Shown one piece after another: positions 2,912 to 22,888 of a stretch of 37,509 nucleotides of DNA. Position 1 is the stretch's first letter. Each line of letters begins with the position of its first letter. Source of the DNA: Phycisphaerales bacterium (GTDB lineage Bacteria > Planctomycetota > Phycisphaerae > UBA1845 > G020352895); NCBI GenBank assembly GCA_020352895.1, contig CP070685.1:2387975-2425483 (forward strand), in the 5' to 3' direction. The notes beneath the pieces were generated by a model that saw only the letters and a program-made list of their open reading frames with translations, searched no databases and had not been told where the DNA came from. Both the position numbers and the translations under genes were made by a program.

Positions 2912-4256
2912 AGAGACCTTGCGGAAGAACCTTGCCCAGGTTCTCGCGGAGGAGAACTTCGATGTCGTGGCCTGCGCCCGCGGCGATGAGGCCGTACGAG
3001 CCCTGAACAGCACCCCGTTTGACGTGGTCATCACTGACATCCGGATGCCCGGGGTGACTGGAATGGAGCTGATCGACCATGTACGCCGTTTGTCCCCAGA
3101 GGCGATCATCATCGTGATCACCGCCTTCGGCGAGGTGGATACCGCGGTCGAGGCGATGAAGAAAGGGGCCAAGGACTACATCTGCAAACCGCTGATCTTC
3201 GACGAGCTGGTCTTCAAACTCAAGCGGCTGCTAGCCCATGAAGACGTGGTCAGGGAGAACATACTCCTGCGGGAACAGGTCCGCCGAACCTTTGACAAGG
3301 GCGAGATTGTTGGCAAGTCGCTGGCGATCAGGTCGATCCTGGAGACTATTCAGCGCATCGCGCACACCATGAGCAATGTGCTGATCTGCGGGGAGAGCGG
3401 TACAGGCAAGGAATTGATCGCGCGGGCCCTACATAGTGAAGGGGTAACCAAGAACAAACCCTTCGTGGCGGTCAATTGCGGGGGCCTGGTCGAGACGCTG
3501 GTGGAAAGTGAACTGTTCGGGTATCGCCGCGGCGCCTTCACCGGCGCTGATACTGATCGGATTGGCTTCTTCGAGGCCGCCGACGGGGGCACACTGTTTC
3601 TCGATGAGATTAGTAATCTCCCGCTTACCAGCCAAGCGGTTCTGCTGCGGGCCATCGAAGAAAAGGCGATCACGCGTGTCGGCGACAATCGCTCCCGGCC
3701 GGTGCGTATCCGGATCGTCGCCGCCACCAACCGCGACCTCGAGGCGGAGATCAAGAACGGTACTTTCCGGGAAGACCTGTTTTTCCGCCTCAACGTGATC
3801 CGTATCACGGTTCCGCCGCTGCGGGAACGGTCCGAGGATATTCCCTGCCTCATCGAGCATTTCGTGAGGCAGTACAACGAGGAGCTGAAGTGCGACTGCC
3901 CAGGCTTCGATCCCGAGGCTATCGAAGCCATGTGCGCCCATCGGTGGTGCGGCAACGTGCGCGAACTGGAGAACGTGGTAGAGCGGGCCCTGATCTTCGC
4001 CGGAGACAGAGAAGTCGGCCTTGGGGATCTGGCCATCGCTGTTAGCAGAGAAGGTGGGGAGGGGACGCGCTCCGTGGATCTGCGGTCGGCCACACGGGAG
4101 TTCGAGCGGCAACACATCACCAAGGTCCTGGCCAAGTTCGACAACAATAAAGTCGCGGCAGCCTCCGCTCTCGAGATCGGCCTGTCCAGCCTGTACCGGA
4201 AGATGGACGAGCTTGGGATCGCCAAGTTGCCGCAGGAGTCATCCCCACCCGCATAG
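2877..4256 (+). CDS. NtrC-family sigma-54-dependent response regulator (459 aa)
   Basis: The domain order is complete. The receiver has the acidic pocket D10/D11 and phosphoacceptor D54 in ITDIRMPG. The AAA+ domain has Walker A GESGTGKE near residue 172, the sigma-54-contacting loop GAFTGA (219-224) and Walker B GGTLFLDEIS. The C-terminus (about 405-455) is a Fis-type helix-turn-helix (NKVAAASALEIGLSSLYRKM). When phosphorylated by the adjacent kinase it should oligomerise and drive open-complex formation at -24/-12 promoters. Four such promoters are present in this window, ahead of its own operon and three others, so it is probably the master activator of the locus. The intact GAFTGA loop supports genuine sigma-54 dependence. 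Length is normal for the family. Confidence 0.95.
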   Translation: MRQATILLADDEETLRKNLAQVLAEENFDVVACARGDEAVRALNSTPFDVVITDIRMPGVTGMELIDHVRRLSPEAIIIVITAFGEVDTAVEAMKKGAKDYICKPLIFDELVFKLKRLLAHEDVVRENILLREQVRRTFDKGEIVGKSLAIRSILETIQRIAHTMSNVLICGESGTGKELIARALHSEGVTKNKPFVAVNCGGLVETLVESELFGYRRGAFTGADTDRIGFFEAADGGTLFLDEISNLPLTSQAVLLRAIEEKAITRVGDNRSRPVRIRIVAATNRDLEAEIKNGTFREDLFFRLNVIRITVPPLRERSEDIPCLIEHFVRQYNEELKCDCPGFDPEAIEAMCAHRWCGNVRELENVVERALIFAGDREVGLGDLAIAVSREGGEGTRSVDLRSATREFERQHITKVLAKFDNNKVAAASALEIGLSSLYRKMDELGIAKLPQESSPPA

Positions 4257-4307
4257 CGATTCTACCCGTTGGCCCTACCGCAAGGGCGTTCCCGAGAGGA
4301 GTGTGGA

Positions 4308-5498
4308 ATGAGAATCGGCAGACTGATCCGATGCGCGGCGACGCTGGAGGCCCTGCTGCTTCCTGGCGTCGCGCTTGCTCAGACCTCGGCTCACCACGCG
4401 CACCCGCCGATGCCCGATCAGGAGTATTCTCTTCATTGCCGACTCGATGGCGGGGACGAGCCCGTTATGATCGACGTGAGCCTGGACATCCCCACGCCCG
4501 TAGCCCCTGCCGAGCTTGACCAGCCGGTGAAGGTGCCCTCCCTGGAACAGCCCCTGCGCGTGAAGCGCTACCTTCCACGGGCCACGCTCGAGCAGGAAAT
4601 GGTAGCCGACGAGGGCGCGAGCGCCGGGCCGGGCGTTCAAATCTCCATCGACGGGCCGACCCAGTCCCATCAACTTTGGCTCCTGGCTAAGGATGCCCAG
4701 CACAACCGTCTGATCAGCCTCATCGGAACGTGGCGGTACCAATCAGTTGCCAACCAGGACGAGCGGGATGAGTTGCTCCGGCAGTTCAAGGAAGAGTGGA
4801 CTCGGGCCCCCATGGTACGGGTCTCGCGACTGGACGGCAGTGGGCTACTGACTCTGCCTGCTGATCCCGGGACCACCCAGGCCTTTGAGGAGTTGAAATG
4901 CAGCGTGCGGGTGCTGAGTTTCTATCCGCACTTCTCTATGAACAAGGAAACGGCCAAACCGGAGAATCGATCGGAGAAGCGGGAGAACCCGGCGGCTCTG
5001 GTGGAGATCGAGCACCAGGGCCGGAAGGAAGAGCGCTGGGTATTCGCCAGATTCCCGGACTTCAAGGCCCGTGAGAAGGAGAGTCTTCCTTTCAAGGTAA
5101 CGCTGGATTGCCCGTTGGAGCCGACCGGCAAGACGCCGGATTTCCTGCTGGTCCTGATCGGCCGGGAAGATCACGAAGTCTGGGTACGATTCGAGGGAGC
5201 TATCCGCGAACAGCCGATCGCAGTCGGTGAGAAGATCAGCGTGCCCGGTTCGCAGTACACCTTCCACATCGCCCAGTTCATTCCGTCGGGCCGCCTGATC
5301 GAGAATTATCGGCCCGCTGAGGGCAGGGGAGGGGTGCCAGCGCTGTTGGTCGACACGGCCGGCGTGGCAAGTCTCCGAGGACCCATATGGCTGCAAATGG
5401 GCGAGATGCGTGTCATCGGGACTGAGGTCGGTCCGTTGAAGCTCTGGTTCGGCCCTGAGAGCGGCGCGACTCGCACCCATCCGACTCCAAGCCACTGA
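4308..5498 (+). CDS. exported soluble ResB-like protein (396 aa)
   Basis: ATG at 4308 follows a strong site (GAGGAG, 6 bases upstream) and gives a signal peptide ending near ALAQ. There is no later membrane helix. The mature protein resembles the extracytoplasmic part of the full ResB encoded at 13907-15694: both have a segment of the type VEIEHQG / VEVEFAG, then ERWVFARFPDF / QRAFARFPEF, then a haem-lyase-partner-like beta-rich stretch ending in VPALLVDTAG / TPAVLVRLSA. An earlier pair, LRVKRYLPRATLEQE and VEVLRYVPDSTWEP, also matches. It thus looks like a ResB periplasmic domain without the haem-handling membrane helices. It lies 51 bases after the sigma-54 activator in the same operon. A role in cytochrome maturation, or as a periplasmic sensor input for the kinase, is inference. 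Another possibility is a structural electron-transfer accessory. Confidence 0.75.
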   Translation: MRIGRLIRCAATLEALLLPGVALAQTSAHHAHPPMPDQEYSLHCRLDGGDEPVMIDVSLDIPTPVAPAELDQPVKVPSLEQPLRVKRYLPRATLEQEMVADEGASAGPGVQISIDGPTQSHQLWLLAKDAQHNRLISLIGTWRYQSVANQDERDELLRQFKEEWTRAPMVRVSRLDGSGLLTLPADPGTTQAFEELKCSVRVLSFYPHFSMNKETAKPENRSEKRENPAALVEIEHQGRKEERWVFARFPDFKAREKESLPFKVTLDCPLEPTGKTPDFLLVLIGREDHEVWVRFEGAIREQPIAVGEKISVPGSQYTFHIAQFIPSGRLIENYRPAEGRGGVPALLVDTAGVASLRGPIWLQMGEMRVIGTEVGPLKLWFGPESGATRTHPTPSH

Positions 5499-5940: not shown

Positions 5941-6567
5941 ATGAAGCGACTCATCCAGGTTTCGACACTGGTACTGGCTATTACTGGAGCGGCCTTCGGC
6001 CAGGACCAGTCCAAGGTGACCAACACGCCGCACAACTTGAACAACGGAGGGTGGGGTATCTCGGTCTCCACACCATCCGGAGCTAATCAGGTATGCCTGC
6101 CCTGCCACGTTCCGCATAACGCCTACCCGGATGAGAGCGGGACGATCAACGACGTATTGTGGAACCACCAGGAGACCGCCGTGGCCTTCACGATGTATCC
6201 CACGGACCTGCCCCAGAGCAACCAGCCCGAAGGGGCCAGCAAAATGTGCCTGAGCTGCCATGACGGGGTGACGGCCATCGACAGCTACGGGGGTACGACC
6301 GGGACCGTGACGCTGGCTGGTCGGCCTAGTGCGATCGGTGAGAATGGCGACCTGACTGATGATCACCCGATCGGCGTGACCTATCCCACGGGAGCCGATG
6401 GCTATCACAATCCCGCCAACTTCACCGGTGTGGTTCTGGTAACTGTCGGCGGTGACGACCGGGTGGAGTGCACTTCGTGCCATGACCCGCACAACAACGC
6501 CCTGGGCGCGTTTCTCCGCCGTACGTTGGACGAGAGCTTGCTCTGTCTCGAGTGCCACGACAAATAG
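5941..6567 (+). CDS. tetrahaem c-type cytochrome, doubled-CXXCH family (208 aa)
   Basis: A signal peptide (MKRLIQVSTLVLAITGAAFG) is followed by four haem motifs: CLPCH, CLSCH, CTSCH and CLECH. The second and third sit in the CLSCHDG and CTSCHDPHN contexts typical of doubled-CXXCH cytochromes. The ATG has a GGGAGG site 5 bases upstream. The whole protein aligns by eye with the N-terminal third of the 12-haem protein at 11825-13543 (shared HNL..GG, QVC..CH.PHN, GASK.CLSCHDG, DL.DDHP, CTSCHDPH), so the two arose by duplication. It should be periplasmic or outer-membrane-associated and act as an electron carrier feeding the barrel encoded downstream. It is separated from the next gene by a strong hairpin at 6642-6676. 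Confidence 0.9.
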   Translation: MKRLIQVSTLVLAITGAAFGQDQSKVTNTPHNLNNGGWGISVSTPSGANQVCLPCHVPHNAYPDESGTINDVLWNHQETAVAFTMYPTDLPQSNQPEGASKMCLSCHDGVTAIDSYGGTTGTVTLAGRPSAIGENGDLTDDHPIGVTYPTGADGYHNPANFTGVVLVTVGGDDRVECTSCHDPHNNALGAFLRRTLDESLLCLECHDK

Positions 6568-6641
6568 CGGGGAGGTTATCGCAGATCGGTCGCCACAAGG
6601 GATGCAGGGGGGCGGCCACCTACTTGATGGCCTGTATAGCG

Positions 6642-6676
6642 CACGGTGCACGCTTTTCGATCAAGCGTGCACCGTG
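6642..6676 (+). terminator. 14-bp stem-loop between the tetrahaem and NHL genes
   Basis: CACGGTGCACGCTT (6642-6655) and its exact reverse complement AAGCGTGCACCGTG (6663-6676) enclose a 7-base loop. There is no run of T after it, so it is either a weak or factor-assisted terminator or an RNA-stability element allowing the tetrahaem cytochrome to be made in excess of the downstream proteins. Confidence 0.6.
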
Positions 6677-6774
6677 TACATTATGGCCGCGTTTTGCTTC
6701 GGCCAGCAGACCTTCCGCGCTTCGCCGCCTCCCACAAAGGAACGCGGAGGGTACGCGATTCGGGGCGACTTCAT

Positions 6775-7977
6775 ATGCTCTCCGGATGCCTGAGGACTGC
6801 GGGGGCCCGCGTTTGGTTCGGCATAATGGCAGTGCTTGCGGGTTGCCAGTCCACGCCTGAGGCCGAGCAGCCCTGGTTGTTCTTCCCATCTCCACCGGCC
6901 GAGCCACGCGTGCAGTTCCTGACCTGGGCTACCGGAGCTGACCAAATCGAACCGGGGAGGACCACGTTTGAGGAATTCATCTTAGGTGAGGACACGAGGC
7001 CCCGGCGCGGAATCGACAAGCCTTATGGCCTCGCAGCGCGCGACGGCGTGATCTACGTCTGCGACACCAAGGGGCTATGCCTATGTAAGCTGGACTTCAA
7101 GAACAAGGAGTACTCCGTGCTGGGGACTCGCGGCCCGGGGCGGCTGCGAAAGCCAATCAACGTGGTGATCGATTCGGCGGGGTACAAGTTTGTGGCGGAC
7201 CCGGTCCGCAAGCAGATCGTCATCTTCAGCCCACAAGACAAGTACGTAGTGGCACACAACATTCCCGAGCCCTGTCATCCGGTCGACGTGGCGGTGTACG
7301 GCAACGAGCTTTACGTGCTGGACAACGATGAGACCTGCCAGATCGTGGTGCTGGACCGCTCGACGGGGGAGGTGCTGCGCAGCTTCGGCGGCCCAGGGGC
7401 CGAGCCGGGCCAGTTCCGGCTTCCCAACAGCTTGTGTGTGGGCCCGGAGGGCTACCTTTACGTCAGCGACACCCACAACTGGCGGCTCCAGAAGCTGACT
7501 CGGGAAGGGGAGCCGGTTTGGGTCCGCGGGACCCCGGGTTATACCCTGGGCCAGTTCGGGCGTCCGCGGGGCATTCGCGTGGGTCCGGACGGGATCGTGT
7601 ACCTCGTGGACGGGGCCACCGAAATCGTCCAGATGTTCAGCCCGGACGGTGAGGTGCTGATGCGTTTTGGCGGGCCAGGAAACACGCCCGGGGCCCTGGT
7701 ACTGCCCTCCACGTTGGCAGTGGACGAAACTTCTGTGCCCTATTTCGCCGAGTATGTGCACAAGGACTTCAAGGTCGAGTACCTGCTGTTTGTAGCCAGT
7801 CAGTACGGCCCGCGGCTACTCAATGTGTATGCGTTCGGGTCCTTTCCGCAGGGCTACGTGTACTCTGAATCGGAGTTTACGACACTGGAGAGGATTCCTC
7901 CCGAAGAGGGTTTTGCCCCCGGCGAGAGGCCGGTCCAGGTTGAGAGGCTCGAGACCGAGGGCCAGGAGGAGCAGTAG
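6775..7977 (+). CDS. NHL-repeat beta-propeller lipoprotein (400 aa)
   Basis: The ATG at 6775 gives a signal peptide ending in the lipobox VLAGC (Cys24). Longer in-frame starts upstream would bury that signal. The mature protein is a run of NHL-type blades, each with a pattern such as P.G......IYV.D....R.Q.., for example SLCVGPEGYLYVSDTHNWR and GIRVGPDGIVYLVDGATE. Six blades are plausible. It has no CXXCH. The N-terminus after the lipid anchor (PSPPAEPRVQFL) resembles that of the second NHL lipoprotein at 10677 (PAPPTEAPARIRYV). These proteins flank a beta-barrel and cytochromes, so a scaffold role for the outer-membrane complex is likely; an enzymatic role cannot be excluded. The ribosome binding site is weak. 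Confidence 0.85.
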   Translation: MLSGCLRTAGARVWFGIMAVLAGCQSTPEAEQPWLFFPSPPAEPRVQFLTWATGADQIEPGRTTFEEFILGEDTRPRRGIDKPYGLAARDGVIYVCDTKGLCLCKLDFKNKEYSVLGTRGPGRLRKPINVVIDSAGYKFVADPVRKQIVIFSPQDKYVVAHNIPEPCHPVDVAVYGNELYVLDNDETCQIVVLDRSTGEVLRSFGGPGAEPGQFRLPNSLCVGPEGYLYVSDTHNWRLQKLTREGEPVWVRGTPGYTLGQFGRPRGIRVGPDGIVYLVDGATEIVQMFSPDGEVLMRFGGPGNTPGALVLPSTLAVDETSVPYFAEYVHKDFKVEYLLFVASQYGPRLLNVYAFGSFPQGYVYSESEFTTLERIPPEEGFAPGERPVQVERLETEGQEEQ

Positions 7978-8021
7978 CACCAGCACCTTTACAGGAGCGA
8001 TACAACTCCGAAGGCGGTCTC

Positions 8022-8603
8022 TTGGCGAAGCGACGTGCGATGGTCATCCTGATAGGCCTGCCGGGGACGCTTGCCCTGCTGCCGGCCTGCTCGGAACCTA
8101 CGAGGTATCGGGTGTTGAGTTTCTTCTTCGACGGCGTGCCTGAGCCGGGTCAGGTCCAGGATGCCGGCGATGAAGTCGATCCGCAGGCTGCCCCGGAACC
8201 GGCCGGACCGTCGGATGCCTTGGCCAGGCGGAGGCCCGTTTTCGCCCACCCGCCCTATCGCGAGAACAGTTGCGGCACCTGTCACACGCGCTTCGGCGGC
8301 GGGCTCCGGCAGACGCCTGAAGACGGACTCTGCCAGACCTGTCACCCCGACATCCCCGGTGACCTGGAGTTTGTACACGGCCCGTTGGCCGTGAATAGCT
8401 GCCTGTCTTGTCACGATCCCCATGCGTCTTCTCACCCGGCCATACTTCTGGGCGAGGTCAACGACGTTTGCTTCAGTTGCCACAGGCGTAACGACCTGAC
8501 CAAGCGGCCCGAGCACGAGCCGGAGCAGGAGCTGTCCTGCACGGATTGTCACGGTGCCCACGGTGGGAGCGACAGGTACTTCTTGAGACGTGGTGGGCGT
8601 TGA
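8022..8603 (+). CDS. pentahaem cytochrome c lipoprotein (193 aa)
   Basis: The TTG at 8022, preceded by AAGGCGG, gives a basic n-region and a hydrophobic core ending in a likely lipobox LLPAC (Cys23); the alternative ATG at 8040 lacks the basic residues. An unusual segment RVLSFFFDGVPEP follows the lipid anchor. After a Pro/Ala linker come five haem motifs, CGTCH (first Cys84), CQTCH, CLSCH, CFSCH and CTDCH, in the CLSCHDPHAS / CTDCHGAHGG contexts of the doubled-CXXCH family. It sits directly before, and just overlaps, the beta-barrel gene. By analogy with porin-cytochrome complexes, this is the best candidate for the cytochrome inserted in or docked to the barrel. Confidence 0.85.
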   Translation: MAKRRAMVILIGLPGTLALLPACSEPTRYRVLSFFFDGVPEPGQVQDAGDEVDPQAAPEPAGPSDALARRRPVFAHPPYRENSCGTCHTRFGGGLRQTPEDGLCQTCHPDIPGDLEFVHGPLAVNSCLSCHDPHASSHPAILLGEVNDVCFSCHRRNDLTKRPEHEPEQELSCTDCHGAHGGSDRYFLRRGGR

Positions 8604-10675
8604 GTGGGACAGACGAACATGCGCGTTGGCCGAGAGGCCGGTCGGGGCGGTGTGTTCGGCCGGTTCCGCGAGGGCGAGGCTCTGCAATTGCCTCGCTTCT
8701 GGCGGCGGCTGCGGCGACGATTCTGACGGGCTGTGAGACTCCGGAGTCCAGGGAACTCGGTGTGCGCAATCTCAAGGTCACCGATTTTGGCGGGTACGTC
8801 GAAGCCGTGGCCCGACGGAGGGAGTTTGAACAGGAATCCAAGGTGATTAACCGTGACAGGAAGTCCAAGGAGACGATTTTCGAGGAGAACCTTCAGTTGG
8901 AGGTTGAGGGCTACACCTACCATCCCAACCTGATGGAGTTCTCTGCCGCGGGGTTGTTCGGGTTGCTCCAGCACGATTTCAAGGAGGACGTGACCGGCAC
9001 CGAAGGCGTGTCCGGCAGCGAAAGCGGAACCGTTGTGGAATTCGATCTTACTGGGTACTTCCTCAAGGAAAAGCCCTATCCGGGAATGGCCTACGCGCGA
9101 CGCGAACAGGCTCTGGAGCCGCGGACATTTCGGCCCAGCGTGGAGGTGACCAACGAAAGTTACGGACTACAGTGGGAGTATCTAAGTGAGAAGGTCCCCA
9201 CGCGAGTGCTGCTCAGCCACGTCGATGTCCATTTAGACCCGCTGGAGACCCAGGAGGAAGAAGGACGACAGAAGAACACGCTCTTCCGGCTGGAGACGGG
9301 CTATAACTTCAATGATTACAACGCCCTTTCATTCATTTACTCTCACGAGGACGTCAGTGAAGAGCCGGATGATCTGGATTACGACACCGATGAAGTGACC
9401 CTGGCCCATCGGTGGGAATTCGGAGAGGACCGCCTGCACCGGCTGGACTCCGAGCTGAACTTCCAGAATACGGACGGGTCTTTCGATTCCGAGCGGCTTC
9501 GCTGGAGGGAGCGCCTGAGGTTGCAGCACACCGACAATCTGCGCTCCTCTTACTTCTTTGAGGCTCTTGACCGGACGCGAGGCAGCCTAAGCGGCGGCGC
9601 TCGGCTTGAAGAGCGGTCCTACTTCTTCACTGCAAGCGTGGAACACAGGCTCTATGACAGCCTAGTCTCTCAGCTCGGGGGCCACTTTCAGACCCAGGAC
9701 TTCAAGCCCGGGACCCAGGTGGACCGGGTCGGAGTCAACGCCAGCCTTGACTATCGCAAGAGGAATCCCTGGGGTGTGCTCAAGGCGAACTACAGCATTG
9801 ATTTTGAAATGGAAGAGCGATCGGGAGGCCCCACGGAGGCCGAGGTCCGGGACGAGAGCCACACATTCATCGATCCGGACCCTATCACGCTGAGCAACCC
9901 GGATGTGGTGGTCGGTTCGATCATAATCACTGCCCTGGACCGGTTCACCGTGTACCGCCTCGGCCGTGATTACAGACTGCGTACCATCGGTGATCGGGTG
10001 GAGATCGAGCGCGTGCCCACCGGATTCATTGCCGATGGCGAGACCGTGCTGGTCGATTACATATTCAGGATAGGAGGTGACCTTACCCGCGACACCTTCC
10101 GGCAGGAATTCTCCCTGCGCCAGGACTTTGACTTCGGGCTGTCCCCCTACTACCGACTGCGCTGGCAGGATCAGGAGATCACCCAGGAACTGGACGATGG
10201 GGTGACTCCCGAGGACATCACCGCTCACATCGTGGGGGCTGACTTCCGTTGGCGTTCGTTCTTCATCGGCGCCGAGTACGAGGATCACGATTCGACGCTC
10301 AATCCGTATGAGGCCTTTCGCCTGAATGCGTCGTACACCCACCGCTTCGAGACCGGAGCCAGCGGGAGCCTGCGGGCCCTGTGGACCGATTACACATATC
10401 GACTTCCCCAAACGCGCGAGGCCAGATTCCTCACCCTGGAGGGCCGCTATCGCCACCCCATCACTGAGAATCTGCTCGTGGAAGGCGCCGTGCTATATCG
10501 CAACGGGGAGGACACGCTCAGCGGAGACGAGGAGGGCGTCGACGTGGACTTGTCCCTTGAGTGGTTCATCCGTCAGACGGAGTTTCGGATCACGTATGAA
10601 TACGGGCGGTTCGACGACGACTTCGCCCGGAATGACTCGTCGGCGCTATATGTCCAACTGAGGCGGAGATTCTGA
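8600..10675 (+). CDS. outer-membrane beta-barrel protein, putative porin of a porin-cytochrome conduit (691 aa)
   Basis: After an export signal the protein is a long series of amphipathic, aromatic-rich strands separated by acidic turns (for example FRLETGYNFNDYNALSFIYSHED), and it ends in LRRRF; a terminal Phe is the usual assembly signal of outer-membrane barrels. I saw no haem motif. The start is uncertain: TTG at 8600 overlaps the stop of the pentahaem gene and gives an n-region with many Arg before SLLAAAAATILTGC, itself a possible lipobox (Cys45). An upstream in-frame start at 8546 would lie inside the previous gene. The neighbours, cytochromes and NHL lipoproteins, suggest an MtrB/OmbB-like role of holding cytochromes across the outer membrane, but I see no specific MtrB signature. 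The number of strands cannot be settled by eye. Confidence 0.8.
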   Translation: MSGTDEHARWPRGRSGRCVRPVPRGRGSAIASLLAAAAATILTGCETPESRELGVRNLKVTDFGGYVEAVARRREFEQESKVINRDRKSKETIFEENLQLEVEGYTYHPNLMEFSAAGLFGLLQHDFKEDVTGTEGVSGSESGTVVEFDLTGYFLKEKPYPGMAYARREQALEPRTFRPSVEVTNESYGLQWEYLSEKVPTRVLLSHVDVHLDPLETQEEEGRQKNTLFRLETGYNFNDYNALSFIYSHEDVSEEPDDLDYDTDEVTLAHRWEFGEDRLHRLDSELNFQNTDGSFDSERLRWRERLRLQHTDNLRSSYFFEALDRTRGSLSGGARLEERSYFFTASVEHRLYDSLVSQLGGHFQTQDFKPGTQVDRVGVNASLDYRKRNPWGVLKANYSIDFEMEERSGGPTEAEVRDESHTFIDPDPITLSNPDVVVGSIIITALDRFTVYRLGRDYRLRTIGDRVEIERVPTGFIADGETVLVDYIFRIGGDLTRDTFRQEFSLRQDFDFGLSPYYRLRWQDQEITQELDDGVTPEDITAHIVGADFRWRSFFIGAEYEDHDSTLNPYEAFRLNASYTHRFETGASGSLRALWTDYTYRLPQTREARFLTLEGRYRHPITENLLVEGAVLYRNGEDTLSGDEEGVDVDLSLEWFIRQTEFRITYEYGRFDDDFARNDSSALYVQLRRRF

Positions 10676-10676
10676 C

Positions 10677-11828
10677 ATGGTCCCCAACGGGCCAACCCGA
10701 TTCTGGCAAGGATACGCGGTCTTGCTCTTCCTGCCTCTGGCGGTAAGCGGTTGCGCCCGGCCGCTCAGGCCGATCTTTGAGGAGCAGCGTCCTGCGATGA
10801 TCTGGCCGGCACCGCCAACCGAAGCCCCGGCCAGAATCCGGTATGTGGGCCAGCTCGCGTCCTCGGCCGACCTCAAGCCGCCCCAGAAGCCATTTCAGGC
10901 TCTGGGGGACCTGTTTGTCGGAGCCAAGGCGCCCGAACGGTTATACGGCCCACGAGCAATCGTCTGTACGGAGGGCGGCCAGCGTGTATGGGTGGCCGAC
11001 CCGGGCGGGCGCTGTGTGCATGTCTTCGACCTGGATCGGAGAGAATACACCAAGATCGAGCGCGCCGGAAACGAGCACCTGCTCACTCCCGTGGGTCTAT
11101 GCCTCGGCCCAGATCATTCGATCTTCGTATGTGACTCTGAAGCGATTGCCGTGCATCGTTTCAACGCGGATACCAACTCGTTCTCCGAGTCGCTTCGTCT
11201 GCCGGAGGATGTGATCCGCCCGGCAGCCATCAGCTACAGCGCGGCCGACGGGAAGCTCTACGTTGTGGACGTCAGCGCCCACGACATCAAGGTGCTCGAA
11301 CTCGACGGCAGCCTGCGCCGACTCTTGGGCAGCCGAGGCCGCGAGGCGGGCGAGTTCAACTTCCCTTGTGACATTGTCCATGACGGAGACTTGATCTGGG
11401 TCGTGGACGCCGGGAACCATCGGGTGCAAGGGCTCACAAGGACGGGGGAGCCTGTGCTTACGCTAGGGCAGGCCGGTGACGCCATGGGCGATCTGGCTTT
11501 GCCCAAAGGAGTGGCTCTGGATTCTGATGGTCATATCTATGTCGTCGATGCCCGCTTTGAGAACGTTCAGGTGTTTGACGGGGATGGAACGTTGCTGCTG
11601 GTTTTCGGGCAGGAGGGCATCGGGCCGGGCGAGTTCTGGTTGCCGGCCGGGATATACATCGACGCCAACGACCGGATCTGGATCTGCGACTCCTATAATG
11701 GGCGGGTGCAGGTGTTCGACTATCTGAAGCCTCCCGGTCAACCGGAGTCTGATCTGGGCGAGCGTATCCCCGCCCTCGCATCCCCAGGCAAGCCGGCTCC
11801 CGCGCCGCCCATGGAGATAGGACCATGA
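10677..11828 (+). CDS. second NHL-repeat beta-propeller lipoprotein (383 aa)
   Basis: The ATG at 10677 lies one base after the barrel stop, with GGAG a few bases upstream. The signal peptide ends in the lipobox AVSGC (Cys26). The mature part is a beta-propeller of NHL blades such as DIVHDGDLIWVVDAGNHRVQ, GVALDSDGHIYVVDARFENV and GIYIDANDRIWICDSYNGR. The C-terminal 40 residues are Pro-rich and probably flexible. It is a paralogue of the NHL lipoprotein at 6775, so the barrel gene is bracketed by two related propellers. Its stop overlaps the start of the 12-haem cytochrome (ATGA), which indicates translational coupling and perhaps a fixed ratio. A scaffold or docking role is inferred from context. 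Confidence 0.87.
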   Translation: MVPNGPTRFWQGYAVLLFLPLAVSGCARPLRPIFEEQRPAMIWPAPPTEAPARIRYVGQLASSADLKPPQKPFQALGDLFVGAKAPERLYGPRAIVCTEGGQRVWVADPGGRCVHVFDLDRREYTKIERAGNEHLLTPVGLCLGPDHSIFVCDSEAIAVHRFNADTNSFSESLRLPEDVIRPAAISYSAADGKLYVVDVSAHDIKVLELDGSLRRLLGSRGREAGEFNFPCDIVHDGDLIWVVDAGNHRVQGLTRTGEPVLTLGQAGDAMGDLALPKGVALDSDGHIYVVDARFENVQVFDGDGTLLLVFGQEGIGPGEFWLPAGIYIDANDRIWICDSYNGRVQVFDYLKPPGQPESDLGERIPALASPGKPAPAPPMEIGP

Positions 11829-13543
11829 CCCATACACCCAGACGCTGGTGTGAGCCCCTGGCCGCGGCTGTGGTGCTGCTCGCCGCCGCGCAAGGGCAGG
11901 CCCAGGATCGCGTCTCCGAGACAGTGCACAACCTGTCTGTGGGCGGGCCCGGAGCGGTGCGAGCGGTGGGCGAGGGTCAGGTGTGCATATTCTGTCACGC
12001 GCCCCACAACACGGGCGGAGTGCGTCCGCTCTGGAACAGGGAGCTCCCGTTGGTCAGCTATGAGATCTACCGCTCTTCGACGCTGGACGCAAAGCCGGGG
12101 CAGCCCACCGGAGCAAGCAAGCTCTGTTTAAGCTGTCACGATGGCACGATTGCCCTGGGCAGTGTACTCAGCCGGACCGACCGGATTCGTATGGTTGGCG
12201 GAGAATACATGCCCTCAGGACTGACCAACCTTGGTACCGACTTGTCCGACGACCATCCCGTGAGTTTCCATTTCACGTCCGGACTGGCCGCCTCCGATCG
12301 GCAACTGGTCAGCCCACGCGGACTGCAGAGCGAAATCAGGCTGGACGACGCGGGCCAGCTCCAATGCACCTCATGCCACGATCCGCACCGAAACTTGTAT
12401 GGTCAGTTTCTGGTGATGCCCAACGAATTCGGTCTTCTGTGCACGGCCTGTCATGCCATGTGGGGCTGGGCTTCAAGCTCGCACCGGACCTCAGGTGCGA
12501 CGGTCATGACCGCACGGACCGGAGACTGGCCCTACGGGACCGTCGCGGGGAACGCCTGCAGAAGTTGTCATCGGCCGCACGCCGCCGGCGGACGTGAACG
12601 TCTGCTCATCCATGAGGCCGAGGAGGAGAACTGCCTCAGTTGCCACGACGGACAAGTGGCCAGGACCGACATCCGGGCGGAAATAGACAAACTCAGCGCC
12701 CACGATCCACGGCGCTATCAGGGGATCCACGATCCGGTGGAGACGCTCTCCGGGGCTCGCAGGCACGTGGAGTGCGCCGACTGCCACAACCCGCACGCCG
12801 GACAACCCCCGCTGCGAACGAGGGCGTATGTGTCCATCGGTCCGACCATGGACAAAGTGCCCGGAGTGACTTCGGGTGGAGGCCAGATTGACGAGGCGCG
12901 TCACGAGTATGAGGTTTGTTTCCGGTGTCACGGAGACTCGGCAGCGCCCACATCGCGCCGGATCATTCGCCAGGTTCAACAGGCTAACCTGCGCCTGCGC
13001 TTCAGCCCCCTGAATCCCAGCTACCATCCGGTGGTCGAGGCCGTGCGGGAGCGTGAAACCGTTAGCCTCATGCCCGGCATGGCAGAAGGCTCACTGATCC
13101 GTTGCACGGACTGCCACAACAACGACACGGGCCCGCGAGCGGAAGGCGGTGGGCCGGATGGGCCTCACGGTTCAAGGTACGATTATCTGCTGGAGCGCAA
13201 CTACACGGTTCTTGACGATACCGTGGAATCGACGCAGGCTTATGCCTTATGCTACAAGTGTCATCAGCGCACCAGCATTCTGTCGGACCGCAGTTTTTCG
13301 TTACATCGCCTCCACGTGGTAGACGAACGGACGCCGTGCTCGGCATGCCACGATCCGCACGGAATCAGCGGGACCCGGAGCTTTGATTCCGATCACACTC
13401 ACCTGATCAACTTTGACACGATCATCGTGCAGCCTGAGCCGGGGTCGAGGCGGATGGAATTCAGGGATCTCGGATCGCGGTCGGGCAGTTGTACGCTGCT
13501 TTGCCATGGAGTGACCCACAATGAGCTGGCCTACGCACCCTAG
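11825..13543 (+). CDS. dodecahaem c-type cytochrome (572 aa)
   Basis: A signal peptide (cleavage likely after GQAQ) precedes eleven CXXCH motifs, CIFCH, CLSCH, CTSCH, CTACH, CRSCH, CLSCH, CADCH, CFRCH, CTDCH, CYKCH and CSACH, and a terminal CTLLCH, a CX3CH variant that also binds haem in some cytochromes. That makes up to 12 haems. The first four motifs and their surroundings match the tetrahaem protein at 5941, so the N-terminus is a duplicated tetrahaem module fused to a longer C-terminal part. No CXXCK motif of the NrfA type is present, so it is probably a carrier or terminal extracellular reductase rather than a nitrite reductase. It has no lipobox. It closes the conduit operon and is the best candidate for the most external cytochrome. 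Confidence 0.9.
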   Translation: MTHTPRRWCEPLAAAVVLLAAAQGQAQDRVSETVHNLSVGGPGAVRAVGEGQVCIFCHAPHNTGGVRPLWNRELPLVSYEIYRSSTLDAKPGQPTGASKLCLSCHDGTIALGSVLSRTDRIRMVGGEYMPSGLTNLGTDLSDDHPVSFHFTSGLAASDRQLVSPRGLQSEIRLDDAGQLQCTSCHDPHRNLYGQFLVMPNEFGLLCTACHAMWGWASSSHRTSGATVMTARTGDWPYGTVAGNACRSCHRPHAAGGRERLLIHEAEEENCLSCHDGQVARTDIRAEIDKLSAHDPRRYQGIHDPVETLSGARRHVECADCHNPHAGQPPLRTRAYVSIGPTMDKVPGVTSGGGQIDEARHEYEVCFRCHGDSAAPTSRRIIRQVQQANLRLRFSPLNPSYHPVVEAVRERETVSLMPGMAEGSLIRCTDCHNNDTGPRAEGGGPDGPHGSRYDYLLERNYTVLDDTVESTQAYALCYKCHQRTSILSDRSFSLHRLHVVDERTPCSACHDPHGISGTRSFDSDHTHLINFDTIIVQPEPGSRRMEFRDLGSRSGSCTLLCHGVTHNELAYAP

Positions 13544-13906: not shown

Positions 13907-15694
13907 ATGAGCCGCACGCACACGGTATTACGCGCTGTTGGGTCTCTATGGTTTGCAGGAGTTCTGCTGGCACTGCTGCTGGTGGCCATGGCCTGCGCCA
14001 CCGTCTTTGAATCGCTGAAAGGCACCGAGCCCGCCTTAGGCGAATTCTACCACTCCTGGTGGTTCAGGCTTCTACTGGTGGGGATCGGCATCAACGTCTT
14101 GGCTGCGGTCCTGGTGCGCCTACCCTTGACCGCCCGGCAAGCGGGGTTCTTCATCACGCATCTGTCGATTCTGGTGACGTTAGGCGGTGCCCTGGTCACC
14201 GAATACCTCGGCAGCCGCGGGCAAGTGGGCCTTATCGAGGGGCAGACTGCCAGCCAGTTCAGTCTTGCCGGCCACGAAACGCTGTTGATAGACGACGGGA
14301 AAAAGCAAGACCCATATGCGATTGACCTGGGCGAGTTTCTGCCCACGCGCCTGAAGCAGGCCGAGATTCGCTGGGCCGGGCGGCAACTCAGCGGCAGCAC
14401 CCGAGTCGAGGTGCTCCGTTACGTGCCAGACAGCACCTGGGAACCGAAGACCACGAACGACAGCCCGGTTGTCCAGCGCGCCCTCGAGATCGCGTTTGGC
14501 CCGGCAGGCCAGCGGGAGCCGCACTGGGTGTTCGCCGGGCAGTCAGTCTCGATGGGCGGCGTGGAGGTCGCGTTTCGCCGCGTGGAGGATCGTGCTGAAC
14601 TGCATCGGCTTGTGAATCCGGCCTCGGCCCCTTCCAGCCAGTTGTCGTCCAAGGGATTCATCACGGTCGAGTATCAGGGGCAGACGTTCGGGTTCCCACT
14701 GGAGCAGGGATTGGGGAAGCCCGTGCCCCTGGGCGAGACCGGGTTTACGGCCCGGGTGTTGCGCTACCTGCCCCACGCGACGGTGGGCACGGACAATCAG
14801 GTGGTCAATGCCTCGGACCGGCCGGTCAACCCCTATGTAGAGGTGGAGTTCGCAGGCCCGGAGAGCAAAGAAACTCAGCGGGCTTTCGCCCGCTTTCCCG
14901 AGTTCAGCACGATGCACGGCTCGGCGAAGGCGCAATCGTTCAAGCTGACGTTCAAGTCCTCCGCCGAGGAGACCCCTTCCACTCCGGTGGAGGTACTCGA
15001 GGGTACCGACGGAGAGATGTACGTTCGATTCAGCCCGAGGGGCGCGGAGCACTCAGCTCAACCTCTGGAGGTGGGCGAGCCCGTGGGATCCCCCTGGCCG
15101 GGGCGTCAGCTTACCGTCATTCGTCGATACGATCATGCCCGGGTGGACTGGACCCTACTGCCGGTCGAGCCGGTACGGGAGAGCCGGACACCGGCCGTCC
15201 TAGTTCGCCTGAGCGCGGCTGGCAGCACAAATGAAGCGTGGGTTCAGAAGTACCAGCGACGACCATTGATGGTTGGATCGAACCGCTACGAGGTTTCCTA
15301 CGTGGACGCGAGTCGCCCGCTGGGCTTCGAGCTGACTCTGGATCGCTTCCGGATCGGATACTACCCCGGGGGCATGCGGCCGCGCTCGTTCGAGAGCCAC
15401 GTCACCGTGGTTCACCCGGCGACGGGGCGGACCGAGAGCCGAGTGATAAGCATGAACCATCCGGCCAAGTTCGGCCGGTACACCCTGTACCAGTCCAGCT
15501 ACCGCCAGGAGAAAGCCAAGACGGTCAGCTTTCTCAGTGTGTCGAGTGACCCCGGTCAGCCCATCGTGTTTGTCGGCTATATCGCCATGATCGTGGGTAT
15601 GCTCGTGGTGCTCGGCACCCGGGTGGCAACCGGCCGGCGGAGGGCAGCGTGGGTGGCAGGCAGCGGGGCTGGTAATCGCAAGGCGGAGAAGTGA
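13907..15694 (+). CDS. resB: ResB/Ccs1 cytochrome c biogenesis protein (595 aa)
   Basis: ResB and CcsA form the System II haem export and ligation complex that attaches haem to CXXCH motifs outside the inner membrane. The N-terminus holds three hydrophobic helices (about residues 10-30, 50-70 and 82-105), the third containing the conserved His in FFITHLSILVTLGGAL. A large extracytoplasmic region of about 440 residues follows, then a final helix (IVFVGYIAMIVGMLVVLG) and a short basic tail, the usual ResB topology. ccsA follows after 7 bases. The extracytoplasmic region shares sequence with the soluble protein at 4308-5498. Placing this pair inside the cluster suggests dedicated maturation capacity for the roughly 100 haem sites encoded around it. 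The ATG at 13907 has only a weak ribosome binding site. Confidence 0.93.
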   Translation: MSRTHTVLRAVGSLWFAGVLLALLLVAMACATVFESLKGTEPALGEFYHSWWFRLLLVGIGINVLAAVLVRLPLTARQAGFFITHLSILVTLGGALVTEYLGSRGQVGLIEGQTASQFSLAGHETLLIDDGKKQDPYAIDLGEFLPTRLKQAEIRWAGRQLSGSTRVEVLRYVPDSTWEPKTTNDSPVVQRALEIAFGPAGQREPHWVFAGQSVSMGGVEVAFRRVEDRAELHRLVNPASAPSSQLSSKGFITVEYQGQTFGFPLEQGLGKPVPLGETGFTARVLRYLPHATVGTDNQVVNASDRPVNPYVEVEFAGPESKETQRAFARFPEFSTMHGSAKAQSFKLTFKSSAEETPSTPVEVLEGTDGEMYVRFSPRGAEHSAQPLEVGEPVGSPWPGRQLTVIRRYDHARVDWTLLPVEPVRESRTPAVLVRLSAAGSTNEAWVQKYQRRPLMVGSNRYEVSYVDASRPLGFELTLDRFRIGYYPGGMRPRSFESHVTVVHPATGRTESRVISMNHPAKFGRYTLYQSSYRQEKAKTVSFLSVSSDPGQPIVFVGYIAMIVGMLVVLGTRVATGRRRAAWVAGSGAGNRKAEK

Positions 15695-15701: not shown

Positions 15702-17519
15702 ATGATGTGGCGCATGTCCTTCACTGTCGCAGGTATAGTGCTGGTCCTGGGTTCGTCGGTCGCGGCTCAACTCCCAGCTTCCCTGGACCTTCAGACCATT
15801 CGAGAGCTCCCGGTCCAGCACGATGGCCGGTGGCCTCCGTTGGACACGGTAGCGCGGGACCTGGTCGAGACGGTGACTGGAGAGGTTTTCTACCAGGGAC
15901 ATGACCCGGTCTTGCTGCTGCTGGGCTGGACCTTTGATGCGGCGAGCTGGATGGATCGCCCTTTGTTCAGCATCGCAAACGCCGAGCTTCGGGCCGAGCT
16001 TCAGCTGCCCGCCTCGAAGACATCCTTCTCCTACAACGAACTGGTCTCCCATCACCGTTTGCACGATCTGGTTGATGAGCTGGGCCGCGTGGAGGGCCGC
16101 AAACTGAACCCGCTGGAATCGAAGGTCAGCTCGATCGAGGAGAAGCTGATCGTGTTGCAGCGGATCTTCGCCGGGCAGGCAATCCGAGCGATCCCAGACC
16201 CCGAGAGTGTTGGAGGTTCCTGGCGTCCGCTTACCATGGCCAGAGAGGAGGAGCCTTCCGAAGTGGGCCAGGCTTTGGCGGCCTGGAAGCAGCTGCGGAG
16301 TGCGTTTCTGGCGGATGATGCGGAGGGTTTTGCGAAAGCATCGGAGCAGCTCAAGCATTCGTTGGCGGCCTTGCCAGCCGCCCATCGCCCCAGCCCAAAG
16401 CTCATCGCGACCGAACTGCGATATAACAGGCAGCATCCGTTTCGCAAGGCCTGGATGCTAATGGTGGCGGGAGCGGTCCTGGCGGCGGTGGCCGTGCCTC
16501 TGCGACGACGCTGGTTTGACGCGGTGTCGGTATTGGCCCTGATGGCAGGCTTCGGAGTGCTGACCTATGGCCTTTGGTTGCGCTGGTCGATCGCAGGTCG
16601 CATCCCGGCCGCCAACATGTTCGAGTCGCTGCTCTTCCTCAGTTGGGGCATGGGAGCTTTCGCTATCCTCTCCATGCTCATCATGCGTGACCGGATCGTG
16701 CCCCTGACTGCATCGGCGATGGGGGCCCTGGCCCTGATCCTGGCAGACTGCCTCCCGCTGGACAGCTACATCCGACCGATCGCCCCGGTGCTACTGGACA
16801 CGGTGTGGATGTCCATTCACGTGCCGATCATTATGTGCTCGTATTCCGTGTTGGCCCTGGCCATGCTGATCGCTCACGTACAATTGGTGGTGATGGCCGT
16901 CACGCCGCAGCGTCGGGAGTTGGCCAAGGCCGTCGACGCGCTGCACTACTGGTATATTCACGTTGGAGCAATCCTCTTACTGGTGGGGATCATCACCGGG
17001 AGCATGTGGGCGGCTTCCTCGTGGGGGCGCTACTGGGGTTGGGACCCTAAAGAGGTCTGGTCTCTCGTGGCTTTCCTCGGGTATCTGGCGATTCTGCACG
17101 TGCGAGCGGATCGCGAACGGGCCGCCTGGTGGATGTATGCGATCGCCGGTCTCCTGGTCGTGGGGCTTTTCGCTCTGGTTGCTCCCAAGCTGGCTCCGTT
17201 GAACGCAAGCAGGCTGCTCGCCTTGGGCGGCGCGGCTGCCGCCGTGTTCATCTTCGTCCTGGCCCGCGGCCAATTCGCCACCGCCTTCAAGAGCGTGCTG
17301 GCCTTCTGGCTCATCATCATGACTTACGTAGGGGTCAACTTCGTGCTGGGCATTGGCCTGCACAGCTACGGGTTCGGCACGGGAGCGGTGGTCCGTTATA
17401 TGTTCCTCATCGGCGGACTCGACCTGATCCTGATTGTGCTGTGCGCCTTGGTCTACTGGATGCGCCGCCAGCGACGCCCCTCCCCGACAATCGGCCCCGC
17501 CGGCGATGCGACGGGCTGA
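15702..17519 (+). CDS. ccsA: CcsA cytochrome c haem lyase with N-terminal extension (605 aa)
   Basis: The C-terminal half is a multi-helix membrane domain with the tryptophan-rich haem-handling WWD motif (MWAASSWGRYWGWDPKEVWSL) and flanking His residues such as SIHVP, HYWYIHVG and GIGLHSYG. The first 240 residues are an additional exported segment after a signal-like helix, with a helical, acidic character; many CcsA proteins lack it. An extended N-terminus is known in some bacterial phyla, but its function is not clear to me. ATG at 15702 is followed in frame by ATG at 15705. It acts with ResB in System II cytochrome c assembly. It ends 16 bases before the convergent pentahaem gene. Confidence 0.93.
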   Translation: MMWRMSFTVAGIVLVLGSSVAAQLPASLDLQTIRELPVQHDGRWPPLDTVARDLVETVTGEVFYQGHDPVLLLLGWTFDAASWMDRPLFSIANAELRAELQLPASKTSFSYNELVSHHRLHDLVDELGRVEGRKLNPLESKVSSIEEKLIVLQRIFAGQAIRAIPDPESVGGSWRPLTMAREEEPSEVGQALAAWKQLRSAFLADDAEGFAKASEQLKHSLAALPAAHRPSPKLIATELRYNRQHPFRKAWMLMVAGAVLAAVAVPLRRRWFDAVSVLALMAGFGVLTYGLWLRWSIAGRIPAANMFESLLFLSWGMGAFAILSMLIMRDRIVPLTASAMGALALILADCLPLDSYIRPIAPVLLDTVWMSIHVPIIMCSYSVLALAMLIAHVQLVVMAVTPQRRELAKAVDALHYWYIHVGAILLLVGIITGSMWAASSWGRYWGWDPKEVWSLVAFLGYLAILHVRADRERAAWWMYAIAGLLVVGLFALVAPKLAPLNASRLLALGGAAAAVFIFVLARGQFATAFKSVLAFWLIIMTYVGVNFVLGIGLHSYGFGTGAVVRYMFLIGGLDLILIVLCALVYWMRRQRRPSPTIGPAGDATG

Positions 17520-17525: not shown

Positions 17526-17539
17526 CTGAGCAAACTCAG
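17526..17539. terminator. short stem-loop between convergent genes
   Basis: CTGAG-CAAA-CTCAG is a 5-bp stem with a tetraloop between the ends of ccsA and the convergent pentahaem gene, overlapping the latter's stop codon. There is no T-run. It may act as a weak bidirectional terminator. Confidence 0.3.
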
Positions 17540-18516
17540 TCGTCGGAGCCCAGAGTGGTGTTGGGCATGACTCCCTCAGAGTCGTGCCGGTCGCAGTAGG
17601 CCTTCTTATAGTAGACCAGCACTCTGGCGAATAGAAGCAGAAAGGCCGTTACCGCCAGGGCCGTGAGAGTCTGGCTCCTGCGGGCCCGGCGCAGGGCCAG
17701 GACAAGCTCGTATGCGTAGTCGGTTTGCCCCGCCACCGCCTCGACGGATCGGCTCAGCTCCTTGATGTCACGCATGTTGAAGCTGTGGAACACGCGTCGC
17801 AGGCGTGAATGCGTCTCGGGTGTGTGATGGTGCATTTCGGCCAGGGCCAGGTTACGATACCCCATCTCTTCCAGCTCATTGAACTTCTCCGCGGAAGAGT
17901 CGATCAGTTCGGCCGTCTCCTGGAGAACTACCTTGATCTCGGCGACGACTTTCATGGTGCTGGCCTGGTGACAGGGTGAACACCGTCCGCCTTCAGCGCG
18001 CGGGCGGGTGTCGACGATGTCGAGCGTGGCCGGACCGATGGCGTGGCTGCCTTGTCCATGACAGAACAGACAGGACGGATCGCCGAAGTTGCCGTGCGGG
18101 CTGCCCAAGTGTTTTTCCATGATCTCGGTGTGGCATCGTCCACAGAAATAGGAAATGCTTCGGCCTCGGGCTCGACCAATAAAGGTGCCCTCTCGACCCT
18201 GAACGCTGAGGAACTCAGGATTGCGAGCCAAGTGTGAGGCCTGCTTCCAGGCCTCGTCAGAGGGGAACTGTTCGAGCCTTGCGGAGGAATCCCCCCCGTG
18301 GCATCCGTCGCAGGCCACGTTGTTCTGGTGGTGCACGCTTCGGGCCCACTCCAGGTCCACGATTTCCGCGGAGCGCCCAGCGAGATTGCGATGGCACTGG
18401 ACGCAGGCGTTGTGTTCATAACGATTGGCGGGGGCTTGCCCTTCCGGCGGCGAGGTGGTCTCGGAAGCGGGGCCGGCCAGCAACAAGGCGATGATCGAGA
18501 GCCACGGTAAGATCAC
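17536..18516 (-). CDS. membrane-anchored pentahaem cytochrome c of the bc complex (326 aa)
   Basis: The GTG at 18514-18516 overlaps the stop of the subunit IV gene (GTGA) and has GAGGA upstream; earlier in-frame codons would lie inside that gene. A signal peptide is followed by five haem motifs, CVQCH, CDGCH, CGRCH, CLFCH and CSPCH, in the first two thirds of the protein. A helical region and a C-terminal membrane helix (about 290-308, TALAVTAFLLLFARVLVYY) come next. Encoded last after Rieske, b6 and subunit IV genes, it takes the place of cytochrome c1 or f as electron exit from the quinol-oxidising complex. Multihaem partners of this kind are known in several anaerobes, including Geobacter Cbc complexes and anammox bc complexes. 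Confidence 0.88.
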   Translation of the reverse strand: MILPWLSIIALLLAGPASETTSPPEGQAPANRYEHNACVQCHRNLAGRSAEIVDLEWARSVHHQNNVACDGCHGGDSSARLEQFPSDEAWKQASHLARNPEFLSVQGREGTFIGRARGRSISYFCGRCHTEIMEKHLGSPHGNFGDPSCLFCHGQGSHAIGPATLDIVDTRPRAEGGRCSPCHQASTMKVVAEIKVVLQETAELIDSSAEKFNELEEMGYRNLALAEMHHHTPETHSRLRRVFHSFNMRDIKELSRSVEAVAGQTDYAYELVLALRRARRSQTLTALAVTAFLLLFARVLVYYKKAYCDRHDSEGVMPNTTLGSDD

Positions 18517-19082
18517 GGTGAGGAATCCTCGTCCCGGTACAGCACCCGTCGGATGGTGCGGTGTTCGTGGATGAGCAGGATGTAGAACAAGATGACTCCT
18601 GCGGCGAACAGCAGGGTAAACAGCAGAGACGGCGGCCAGACTGCCCAGAAAGTGAGGGCCAAGGCCGCGGCGATCACCAGGGTGACCAATGTGGTGTGCA
18701 GTCGCCCGGGACGCTTGTGGGACCAGCGCCGAGCCCAGGCAGGCAGGAGAATCACGGCGAGGATGAACGGGCCCTGCGACAATACCCCGACGGTCTTGCC
18801 TGAAATGCCGAGAAACTCGGACGGGGGCAGCTTCAGATACTGGTAGACGGCCAGGAAATACCACTCGGGACGGATGTGTTCAGGAGTGGCCCGCGGATCA
18901 GCCGGCGTCTCCTCCTCGATGAGTTCTCCCAGGCCGACGTAGTCGAGCACCACCGGCAGCACGACCAGACCCCCGACGACGGCCAGCGTACACAGAACCA
19001 CCACTCCCATGCGCAGGATTTCATTCGGCCAGAAGGGCTCGAGCTGTTGCGGAGTGTACTGCTTGCGATAGTCAACAGCCAT
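18513..19082 (-). CDS. petD: cytochrome b C-terminal domain protein / subunit IV (189 aa)
   Basis: This corresponds to the C-terminal half of cytochrome b, encoded separately as in b6f-type complexes. The quinol-oxidation (Qo) site motif PEWY is present in RPEWYFLAVYQYLK (about residues 72-85). About four hydrophobic helices follow and precede it. The ATG at 19080-19082 has GGGAGGG about 12 bases upstream. It starts 22 bases after the b6 gene stop, and its own stop overlaps the pentahaem start, so the genes are tightly co-expressed. The N-terminus (YRKQYTPQQLEPFWPNE) is cytoplasmic. It is expected to assemble with the b6-type protein and the Rieske protein. Confidence 0.92.
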   Translation of the reverse strand: MAVDYRKQYTPQQLEPFWPNEILRMGVVVLCTLAVVGGLVVLPVVLDYVGLGELIEEETPADPRATPEHIRPEWYFLAVYQYLKLPPSEFLGISGKTVGVLSQGPFILAVILLPAWARRWSHKRPGRLHTTLVTLVIAAALALTFWAVWPPSLLFTLLFAAGVILFYILLIHEHRTIRRVLYRDEDSSP

Positions 19083-19104
19083 AGTGGCGAATCCCTCCCT
19101 CTGC

Positions 19105-19764: not shown

Positions 19765-19798
19765 GGTCTATACCGCCTTCCCGTTGAGGCCTCTCATC

Positions 19799-22712: not shown

Positions 22713-22766
22713 CGTACGAGCACCATCGCGGCTATGCGACCTTGTAGCAAGGGGGCTCAGAGCATC

Positions 22767-22784
22767 ATTCTCAATATCGAGAAG
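22767..22784. promoter_or_regulatory. inverted repeat, candidate operator shared with 13711-13728
   Basis: ATTCTCAATATCGAGAAG is an inverted repeat (TTCTC/GAGAA with a 6-base spacer). On the minus strand it shares TTCTCGAT-N2-TGAGAAT with the element before resB. It lies 55 bases before the 15-haem start and inside the predicted transcript, so it may be an operator, a downstream activator site or an RNA hairpin. Confidence 0.45.
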
Positions 22785-22857
22785 ACGCCCTGGCGAGTAC
22801 CGGGCAGGGTTCCCGTTTATGAGAACCTGCCGGCTATCGAGCACGGGAACTGCCGTG
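22768..22857 (-). ncRNA. structured 5' leader of the bc operon: three consecutive stem-loops
   Basis: Transcription from the minus-strand sigma-54 promoter should start near 22862 and give a leader of about 150 bases. Read in that direction there are three stems: CACGG/CCGTG (22842-22857), a longer stem CCGGCAGGTTC/GAACCCTGCCCGG with two single-base bulges (22800-22833), and TTCTC/GAGAA (22768-22783). No known riboswitch class is recognised. The arrangement could affect mRNA stability or translation. Confidence 0.35.
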
Positions 22858-22872
22858 TTGCCCGATATTATG

Positions 22873-22888
22873 GGCAAGTTGCGTGCCC
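22873..22888 (-). promoter_or_regulatory. sigma-54 (-24/-12) promoter of the 15-haem/bc operon
   Basis: On the minus strand the bases are GGGCACGCAACTTGCC. GG and GC are separated by exactly ten bases, and only the first base departs from TGGCACG-N4-TTGC. It is about 160 bases upstream of the 15-haem start at 22712. Confidence 0.65.

Follow-up and report, generated by a model that had tools for sequence, protein, structure and literature searches.

A run of six genes on the + strand, at 5941-13543 of the analysed window (the whole stretch of 37,509 nucleotides), probably encodes an outer-membrane electron conduit of the Uet type that is joined to a cytochrome nanowire of the OmcE type. The conduit part of this reading is well supported. 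Its combination with a nanowire is probable because the dodecahaem cytochrome that closes the run is an OmcE fusion: its residues 1-211 are homologous to OmcE over the full length of the latter, and eight more haems follow. The OmcE domain at the start of this cytochrome and the OmcE-type tetrahaem gene at 5941-6567 had both been missed in the original prediction.

Gene cluster and its conservation

The genome that carries the cluster is a single contig of 3.60 Mb. The six genes code, in order, for a tetrahaem cytochrome, an NHL protein, a pentahaem cytochrome, a barrel, a second NHL protein and the dodecahaem cytochrome, and are followed by two genes for cytochrome c maturation:

5941..6567, + strand: OmcE-type tetrahaem c-type cytochrome, candidate nanowire subunit (4 CxxCH; phmmer match to OmcE)
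6775..7977, + strand: NHL propeller lipoprotein, upstream copy (Pfam NHL 1e-13; lipobox LAGC)
8040..8603, + strand: pentahaem lipoprotein cytochrome (5 CxxCH; Pfam Paired_CXXCH_1 2.4e-23)
8600..10675, + strand: predicted outer-membrane beta-barrel, ~28 strands (AlphaFold2; Foldseek; family homologues)
10677..11828, + strand: NHL propeller lipoprotein, downstream copy (Pfam NHL 7.9e-27; lipobox VSGC)
11825..13543, + strand: dodecahaem cytochrome, OmcE-like N-domain and octahaem C-part (profile, Foldseek, haem motifs)
13907..15694, + strand: ResB/Ccs1, system II cytochrome c maturation (Pfam ResB 1.5e-27)
15702..17519, + strand: CcsA-type cytochrome c assembly protein (Pfam Cytochrom_C_asm 1.2e-29)

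ResB was also found downstream of the cluster in several close relatives. The pentahaem, barrel, NHL and dodecahaem genes lie in the order that had been claimed and are as tightly packed: a single nucleotide separates the barrel stop from the downstream NHL gene, which in turn overlaps the dodecahaem gene by 4 nt. The original prediction, made for 8022-13543, also had the barrel bracketed by NHL lipoproteins. Two NHL lipoproteins are indeed encoded, but the upstream copy lies outside that interval, and the pentahaem gene intervenes between it and the barrel.

The presence of these genes was compared among 61 genomes of the same order. The barrel was found in 45 genomes and the dodecahaem cytochrome in 45, with both present in 44; one genome (G039) carried the dodecahaem without the barrel, another (G047) carried only the barrel, and 15 had neither. 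An OmcE-type tetrahaem cytochrome was present in all 45 dodecahaem-bearing genomes, and in the 15 genomes with neither barrel nor dodecahaem it was missing as well. Among loci in related genomes, 97 of 107 had an NHL gene immediately in front of the dodecahaem gene, and in 77 of the 91 loci with enough sequence to see it that NHL gene was itself immediately preceded by a barrel gene. These frequencies indicate that the association of the genes is not due to chance. The loci span at least nine phyla, with representatives in Planctomycetota, Nitrospirota, Pseudomonadota, Verrucomicrobiota, Bacteroidota, Zixibacteria, Ignavibacteria/Chlorobiota, Calditrichota, Desulfobacterota and Acidobacteriota, and the conserved synteny that had been proposed as a check on the cluster proved strong across phyla.

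Directly upstream of the cluster, at 1424-4256, lie genes for a histidine kinase and an NtrC-type sigma-54 response regulator. Similar kinase/regulator genes lie near the cluster in close relatives, and were also seen beside it in certain other phyla (L072, L125). This proximity suggests conserved control of the cluster. The gene at 4269-5498 encodes a probably secreted conserved protein with no Pfam or NCBIfam match, which follows the response regulator also in the close relative L026 (43% identity). Further downstream, 17536-33252 is a long stretch of multihaem genes, including 11-haem proteins fused to cytochrome b (23269-25482 and 31084-33252), an 11-haem NrfH/NapC-like protein (25486-27039) and proteins with 13 CxxCH motifs and additional CX4CH and CX3CH sites (21321-22997, 27036-28571 and 28575-30017). 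Two TPR proteins, one of them with an AhpC/TSA domain, are interspersed in this stretch. The entire window looks like an electron-exchange island.

The OmcE-like cytochromes

The dodecahaem cytochrome carries 11 CxxCH motifs and one CX3CH motif (CTLLCH, residues 556-561). The CX3CH site, together with all other haem sites, was present in 62 of 64 aligned dodecahaem sequences, which argues that the count of twelve is correct, and its terminal position would explain why CxxCH counts give eleven. Outside the CxxCH motifs the same alignment revealed 13 invariant or nearly invariant histidines and three more that are common, as against the 12 distal ones needed. The nearest named relatives were found in Phycisphaerae MAGs (63-68% identity), which makes a planctomycete of this class the most likely host.

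Searching with phmmer matched residues 16-211 of the dodecahaem cytochrome to OmcE (Protein Data Bank entry 7tfs; E 1.2e-28) and residues 12-211 to 9yuq_N. The profile of the 64 dodecahaem sequences (A3) matched 7tfs with an E-value of 4e-49, and the match stopped at the last residue of OmcE. The AlphaFold2 model of the protein (pLDDT 88.9, pTM 0.86) had OmcE 7tfs as its sole significant PDB match in Foldseek (TM 0.73 over 202 columns, target length 202), and each of the four candidate distal histidines of the OmcE-like N-domain was kept in at least 63 of the 64 sequences. The octahaem C-terminal part had no solved structural relative in the PDB by Foldseek. Going by the profile and the structural match, the dodecahaem is more than a plain inner or outer conduit cytochrome: it is an OmcE fusion.

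The separate tetrahaem cytochrome has a signal peptidase I type leader and aligned with OmcE over almost its full length (phmmer E 6.6e-18 to 7tfs and 5.2e-13 to 9yuq_N; 32% identity over 193 aligned residues), with four candidate distal histidines as in an OmcE-type subunit. In OmcE and OmcS filaments, part of what joins the subunits is a histidine of one that ligates a haem of the next (PMC9473688; PMC12954529). This ligation between neighbours, used by OmcE (PMC9473688), offers a mechanism for docking. In a phylogenetic tree, 74 dodecahaem N-domains separated without exception from 64 tetrahaem cytochromes, OmcE and 9yuq, with moderate branch support (0.76). Judged from this comparison of sequences, the putative base and filament copies seem to have formed separate lineages for a long time, and a split as clean as this is expected if the two have long had different jobs.

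These observations bear on a simpler reading, in which the cluster is a plain porin-cytochrome conduit: the pentahaem protein would fill the barrel from the inside, the dodecahaem would be the terminal surface cytochrome in the role of MtrC, the OmcE-like domain would be just an electron-transfer fold, and the tetrahaem would be a monomeric cytochrome of the cell surface, with no filament formed. The gene set does follow the pattern of a barrel with an inner and an outer cytochrome, the gene of the pentahaem lipoprotein adjoins that of the barrel, and the C-terminal part of the dodecahaem matched the MtrC/MtrF-like domain PF22113 in Pfam (4.1e-12). However, a conduit of this kind leaves unexplained the full-length OmcE domain as well as the tetrahaem cytochrome found in every dodecahaem-bearing genome of the order, and OmcE itself is filamentous. 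We regard this reading as unlikely, though as a serious alternative.

The barrel, the pentahaem lipoprotein and the NHL propellers

The barrel ORF (8546-10675) starts at either TTG 8546 or TTG 8600, and the latter start would overlap the pentahaem stop. The AlphaFold2 model obtained from an alignment of 40 sequences (mean pLDDT 91.9, pTM 0.78) consists of 17 long strands, an insert of ~86 residues and 11 further strands, which gives about 28 strands (+/-2). Foldseek matched the model to LptD, TonB-dependent receptors and MtrB with a TM of at most ~0.4; as modelled, the protein is a large barrel without a close solved relative. Pfam returned sub-threshold barrel matches only, single-sequence and profile searches of the PDB revealed no relative, and a single-sequence scan of genome contigs found none either, whereas the dodecahaem alignment did find relatives. 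MtrB has 26 strands and encloses the folded MtrA (PMC7198977), and since about 28 strands are predicted here, the lumen should, by strand count, suffice for a multihaem protein. The original prediction of a barrel with room for a haem wire was thus upheld as far as a confident model can tell, and nothing found among its homologues points to an unrelated transport protein. The barrel was rejected as a homologue of MtrB, as it had no match to MtrB_PioB in Pfam and none to MtrB in sequence searches of the PDB; among 40 members of the barrel family, one matched MtrB_PioB, at 0.009.

The barrel might also be thought to serve mainly as an usher-like export or assembly pore for the tetrahaem and dodecahaem cytochromes, with the NHL proteins as assembly factors and with electrons crossing the membrane elsewhere. 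The Foldseek match to LptD fits such a role, the size of MtrB itself has been likened to that of FimD and LptD (PMC7198977), and the secretion of cytochrome wires is unresolved in the field (PMC12307469). Nevertheless, another gene for a protein with three or more haems was found near all 44 barrels that had 2.5 kb or more of sequence upstream, nearly every barrel genome of the order (44 of 45) encodes the dodecahaem, and no usher-type domain was detected by Pfam. A pore devoted mainly to export is accordingly rather improbable.

The insert between strands 17 and 18 (9824-10081, residues 365-450 counted from Cys 8732) ranks with the best-conserved regions of the barrel family and holds a disproportionate share of its invariant positions. 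Such conservation suggests a docking surface; should the N-terminus be periplasmic, the insert is predicted to lie on the outside. The possible lipobox of the barrel that had been noted earlier is present as LTGC around the N-terminal Cys (8732), and this Cys is kept almost throughout the close clade. Position -3 there, however, is often P or S, and the Cys is missing in the close relative L069 and in most of the wider family. The barrel was for these reasons dropped as a certain lipoprotein.

The pentahaem ORF (8022-8603) opens at TTG 8022, with ATG 8040 as the likelier start. Its leader contains the lipobox-like LLPAC, and the predicted lipidated Cys is shortly followed by the motif FFFDGVP. 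Lipoprotein cytochromes encoded near the barrel in many loci show the same pattern: a Cys, ~8 to 14 residues and then FFFDGVP or a close variant. They have three haems in Gammaproteobacteria, five in Planctomycetota and many others, and nine in Bacteroidota and Chlorobiota; those with 10 to 19 haems come mainly from Verrucomicrobiota. The FFFDGVP protein looks like a lipid-anchored supplier whose length varies by host. Such proteins in L125, L128, L138, L142, L144 and others, with FFFDGVP or a variant such as FFDLP or FFDIQPP, may form one signature family, and a similar Cys-FFD signature is seen in one trihaem protein in each of L138, L141 and L142. An FFFDGVP-type cytochrome did not adjoin the barrel in some Pseudomonadota loci; this, along with the range of 3-19 haems across phyla, led us to drop the pentahaem protein as the sole option for the wire inside the barrel, for which the octahaem part of the dodecahaem is the other candidate.

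Lipoboxes are present in both NHL proteins of the window. Close relatives keep the upstream NHL gene in its place between the genes for the tetrahaem and the pentahaem. In 10 relatives of the same order (L037, L039, L040, L041, L044, L046, L056, L061, L062 and L065) an upstream-type NHL protein is fused in frame to an octahaem cytochrome domain, which is good evidence that the upstream type works beside cytochromes. Both NHL proteins are part of the unit: one directly adjoins the barrel, and the other type takes part in these fusions. A scaffold or clamp role, as originally proposed, would be reasonable for them.

Proposed arrangement and comparison with known systems

With subcellular placement taken from signal peptides and analogy, we infer that the cluster proteins form one complex, in line with the stoichiometric one originally supposed. 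The barrel would provide a wide hole through the outer membrane, and on the periplasmic side a lipid-anchored multihaem protein, here the pentahaem, would carry the electrons. With the help of the NHL lipoproteins, the octahaem half of the dodecahaem would dock at the barrel's outer mouth, either within it or on top of it, and the OmcE-like front half would stay outside as the fixed first subunit of a wire. The tetrahaem cytochrome would polymerise onto this OmcE-like domain via shared His ligands and so form an insulated wire leading away from the cell. Docking of the octahaem half in the barrel is a guess, because this half matches no solved structure, and both the direction of electron flow and the cytochrome that occupies the barrel interior are presumed. 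The scheme builds directly on the genes, whose linkage and co-occurrence are conserved, on the barrel fold as predicted, and on the homology of the dodecahaem and the tetrahaem to OmcE.

Beyond this, we tentatively suggest as a real possibility that the OmcE-fused dodecahaem is a dedicated base which fixes an OmcE-type nanowire to the outer-membrane conduit, and that it represents a general solution for anchoring and electrical joining across many phyla. If true, the wire would have a defined polarity, with one base per conduit. That the dodecahaem is instead a precursor like the long form of OmcZ, from which a protease frees the N-terminal OmcE domain to polymerise while the C-part acts as a removable block, is very improbable: OmcZ is matured in this way by OzpA (PMC12307469) and the fusion point lies exactly at the OmcE C-terminus, but eight conserved haem sites would be costly in a discarded block, and the subunit is already supplied by the separate tetrahaem gene.

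According to a 2025 review, the assembly, the anchoring and the membrane and electrical coupling of extracellular cytochrome wires are unresolved (PMC12307469), and another paper states that possible filament tip proteins were left out of consideration (PMC9473688). In the account drawn from PMC11077965, electron conduction by cytochrome filaments in vivo is disputed. A gene that nearly always lies beside the barrel gene, and whose product opens with a domain that is itself a wire subunit, offers a direct and testable candidate for the missing link. The combination of OmcE-dodecahaem, NHL protein and barrel would moreover serve as a simple genomic marker with which to predict bacteria that exchange electrons, in Planctomycetota, Nitrospirota, Bacteroidota, Verrucomicrobiota and others, and named carrier strains, for example Carboxylicivirga marina (L125), make experiments possible.

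The cluster shares with MtrCAB and Pcc/Ext of Shewanella and Geobacter a barrel, multihaem cytochromes and lipoprotein components. It differs in that the barrel has no sequence match to MtrB and about 28 rather than 26 strands, and in that the consulted descriptions of those systems contain no NHL proteins or OmcE fusion. The OetABI and OmcKL clusters of syntrophic sulfate reducers likewise encode a conduit together with filament-type cytochromes, OmcS and OmcX (PMC10553843); their filaments are of the OmcS type, in contrast to the OmcE type here, and the portion of that source used here does not mention NHL proteins or an OmcE-fused dodecahaem. The tetrahaem cytochrome and residues 1-211 of the dodecahaem resemble OmcE of Geobacter sulfurreducens (7tfs) along its length, with haem sites and candidate distal histidines kept, whereas the 12-haem fusion has no PDB counterpart.

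The greatest number of shared parts was seen with Uet (undecahaem electron transfer), taken here from genomic descriptions, which has been reported from Tenderiales and some Gallionella (Eddie 2022, via PMC10734462). As outlined in PMC10734462, Uet comprises an extracellular tetrahaem UetA, a peptidyl-prolyl isomerase UetB, a barrel UetC, the periplasmic trihaem proteins UetDEG, the NHL proteins UetHI and an undecahaem UetJ. Uet clusters in that outline already contain a barrel and two NHL proteins, and the arrangement is thus not unprecedented. In the window, UetA corresponds to the tetrahaem OmcE homologue, UetH and UetI to the two NHL proteins, and UetJ to a cytochrome with 11 CxxCH and one CX3CH encoded with the barrel. 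UetC corresponds to the predicted barrel, which by family profile takes the same position in loci of Uet layout, the comparison being with these loci and with the description of the Tenderia system. In the gammaproteobacterial loci L133, L138, L141 and L142, trihaem genes, barrel, NHL and 11-CxxCH cytochrome follow one another as in Uet, and their barrel and cytochrome are homologues of the barrel and dodecahaem of the window. No UetB-like peptidyl-prolyl isomerase was found among the window genes scanned with Pfam. In L129, a protein at 7920-8969 between the barrel and NHL genes is SurA/PpiC-like by eye and is possibly a UetB equivalent.

The window differs from Uet in its host, which is from another phylum, and in that the trihaem proteins UetD, E and G are replaced by one pentahaem FFFDGVP lipoprotein. 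Because the pentahaem stands in for the trihaems, the cluster is a variant rather than a plain member: going by the available outline of Uet, it is a planctomycete variant of a kind already described from genomes. The literature searched, in which the primary Uet and OmcE accounts were not included, describes neither an OmcE domain in UetJ nor a role as wire base. The OmcE fusion gives a structural reading to UetJ, which in the source cited is otherwise named just as an undecahaem cytochrome.
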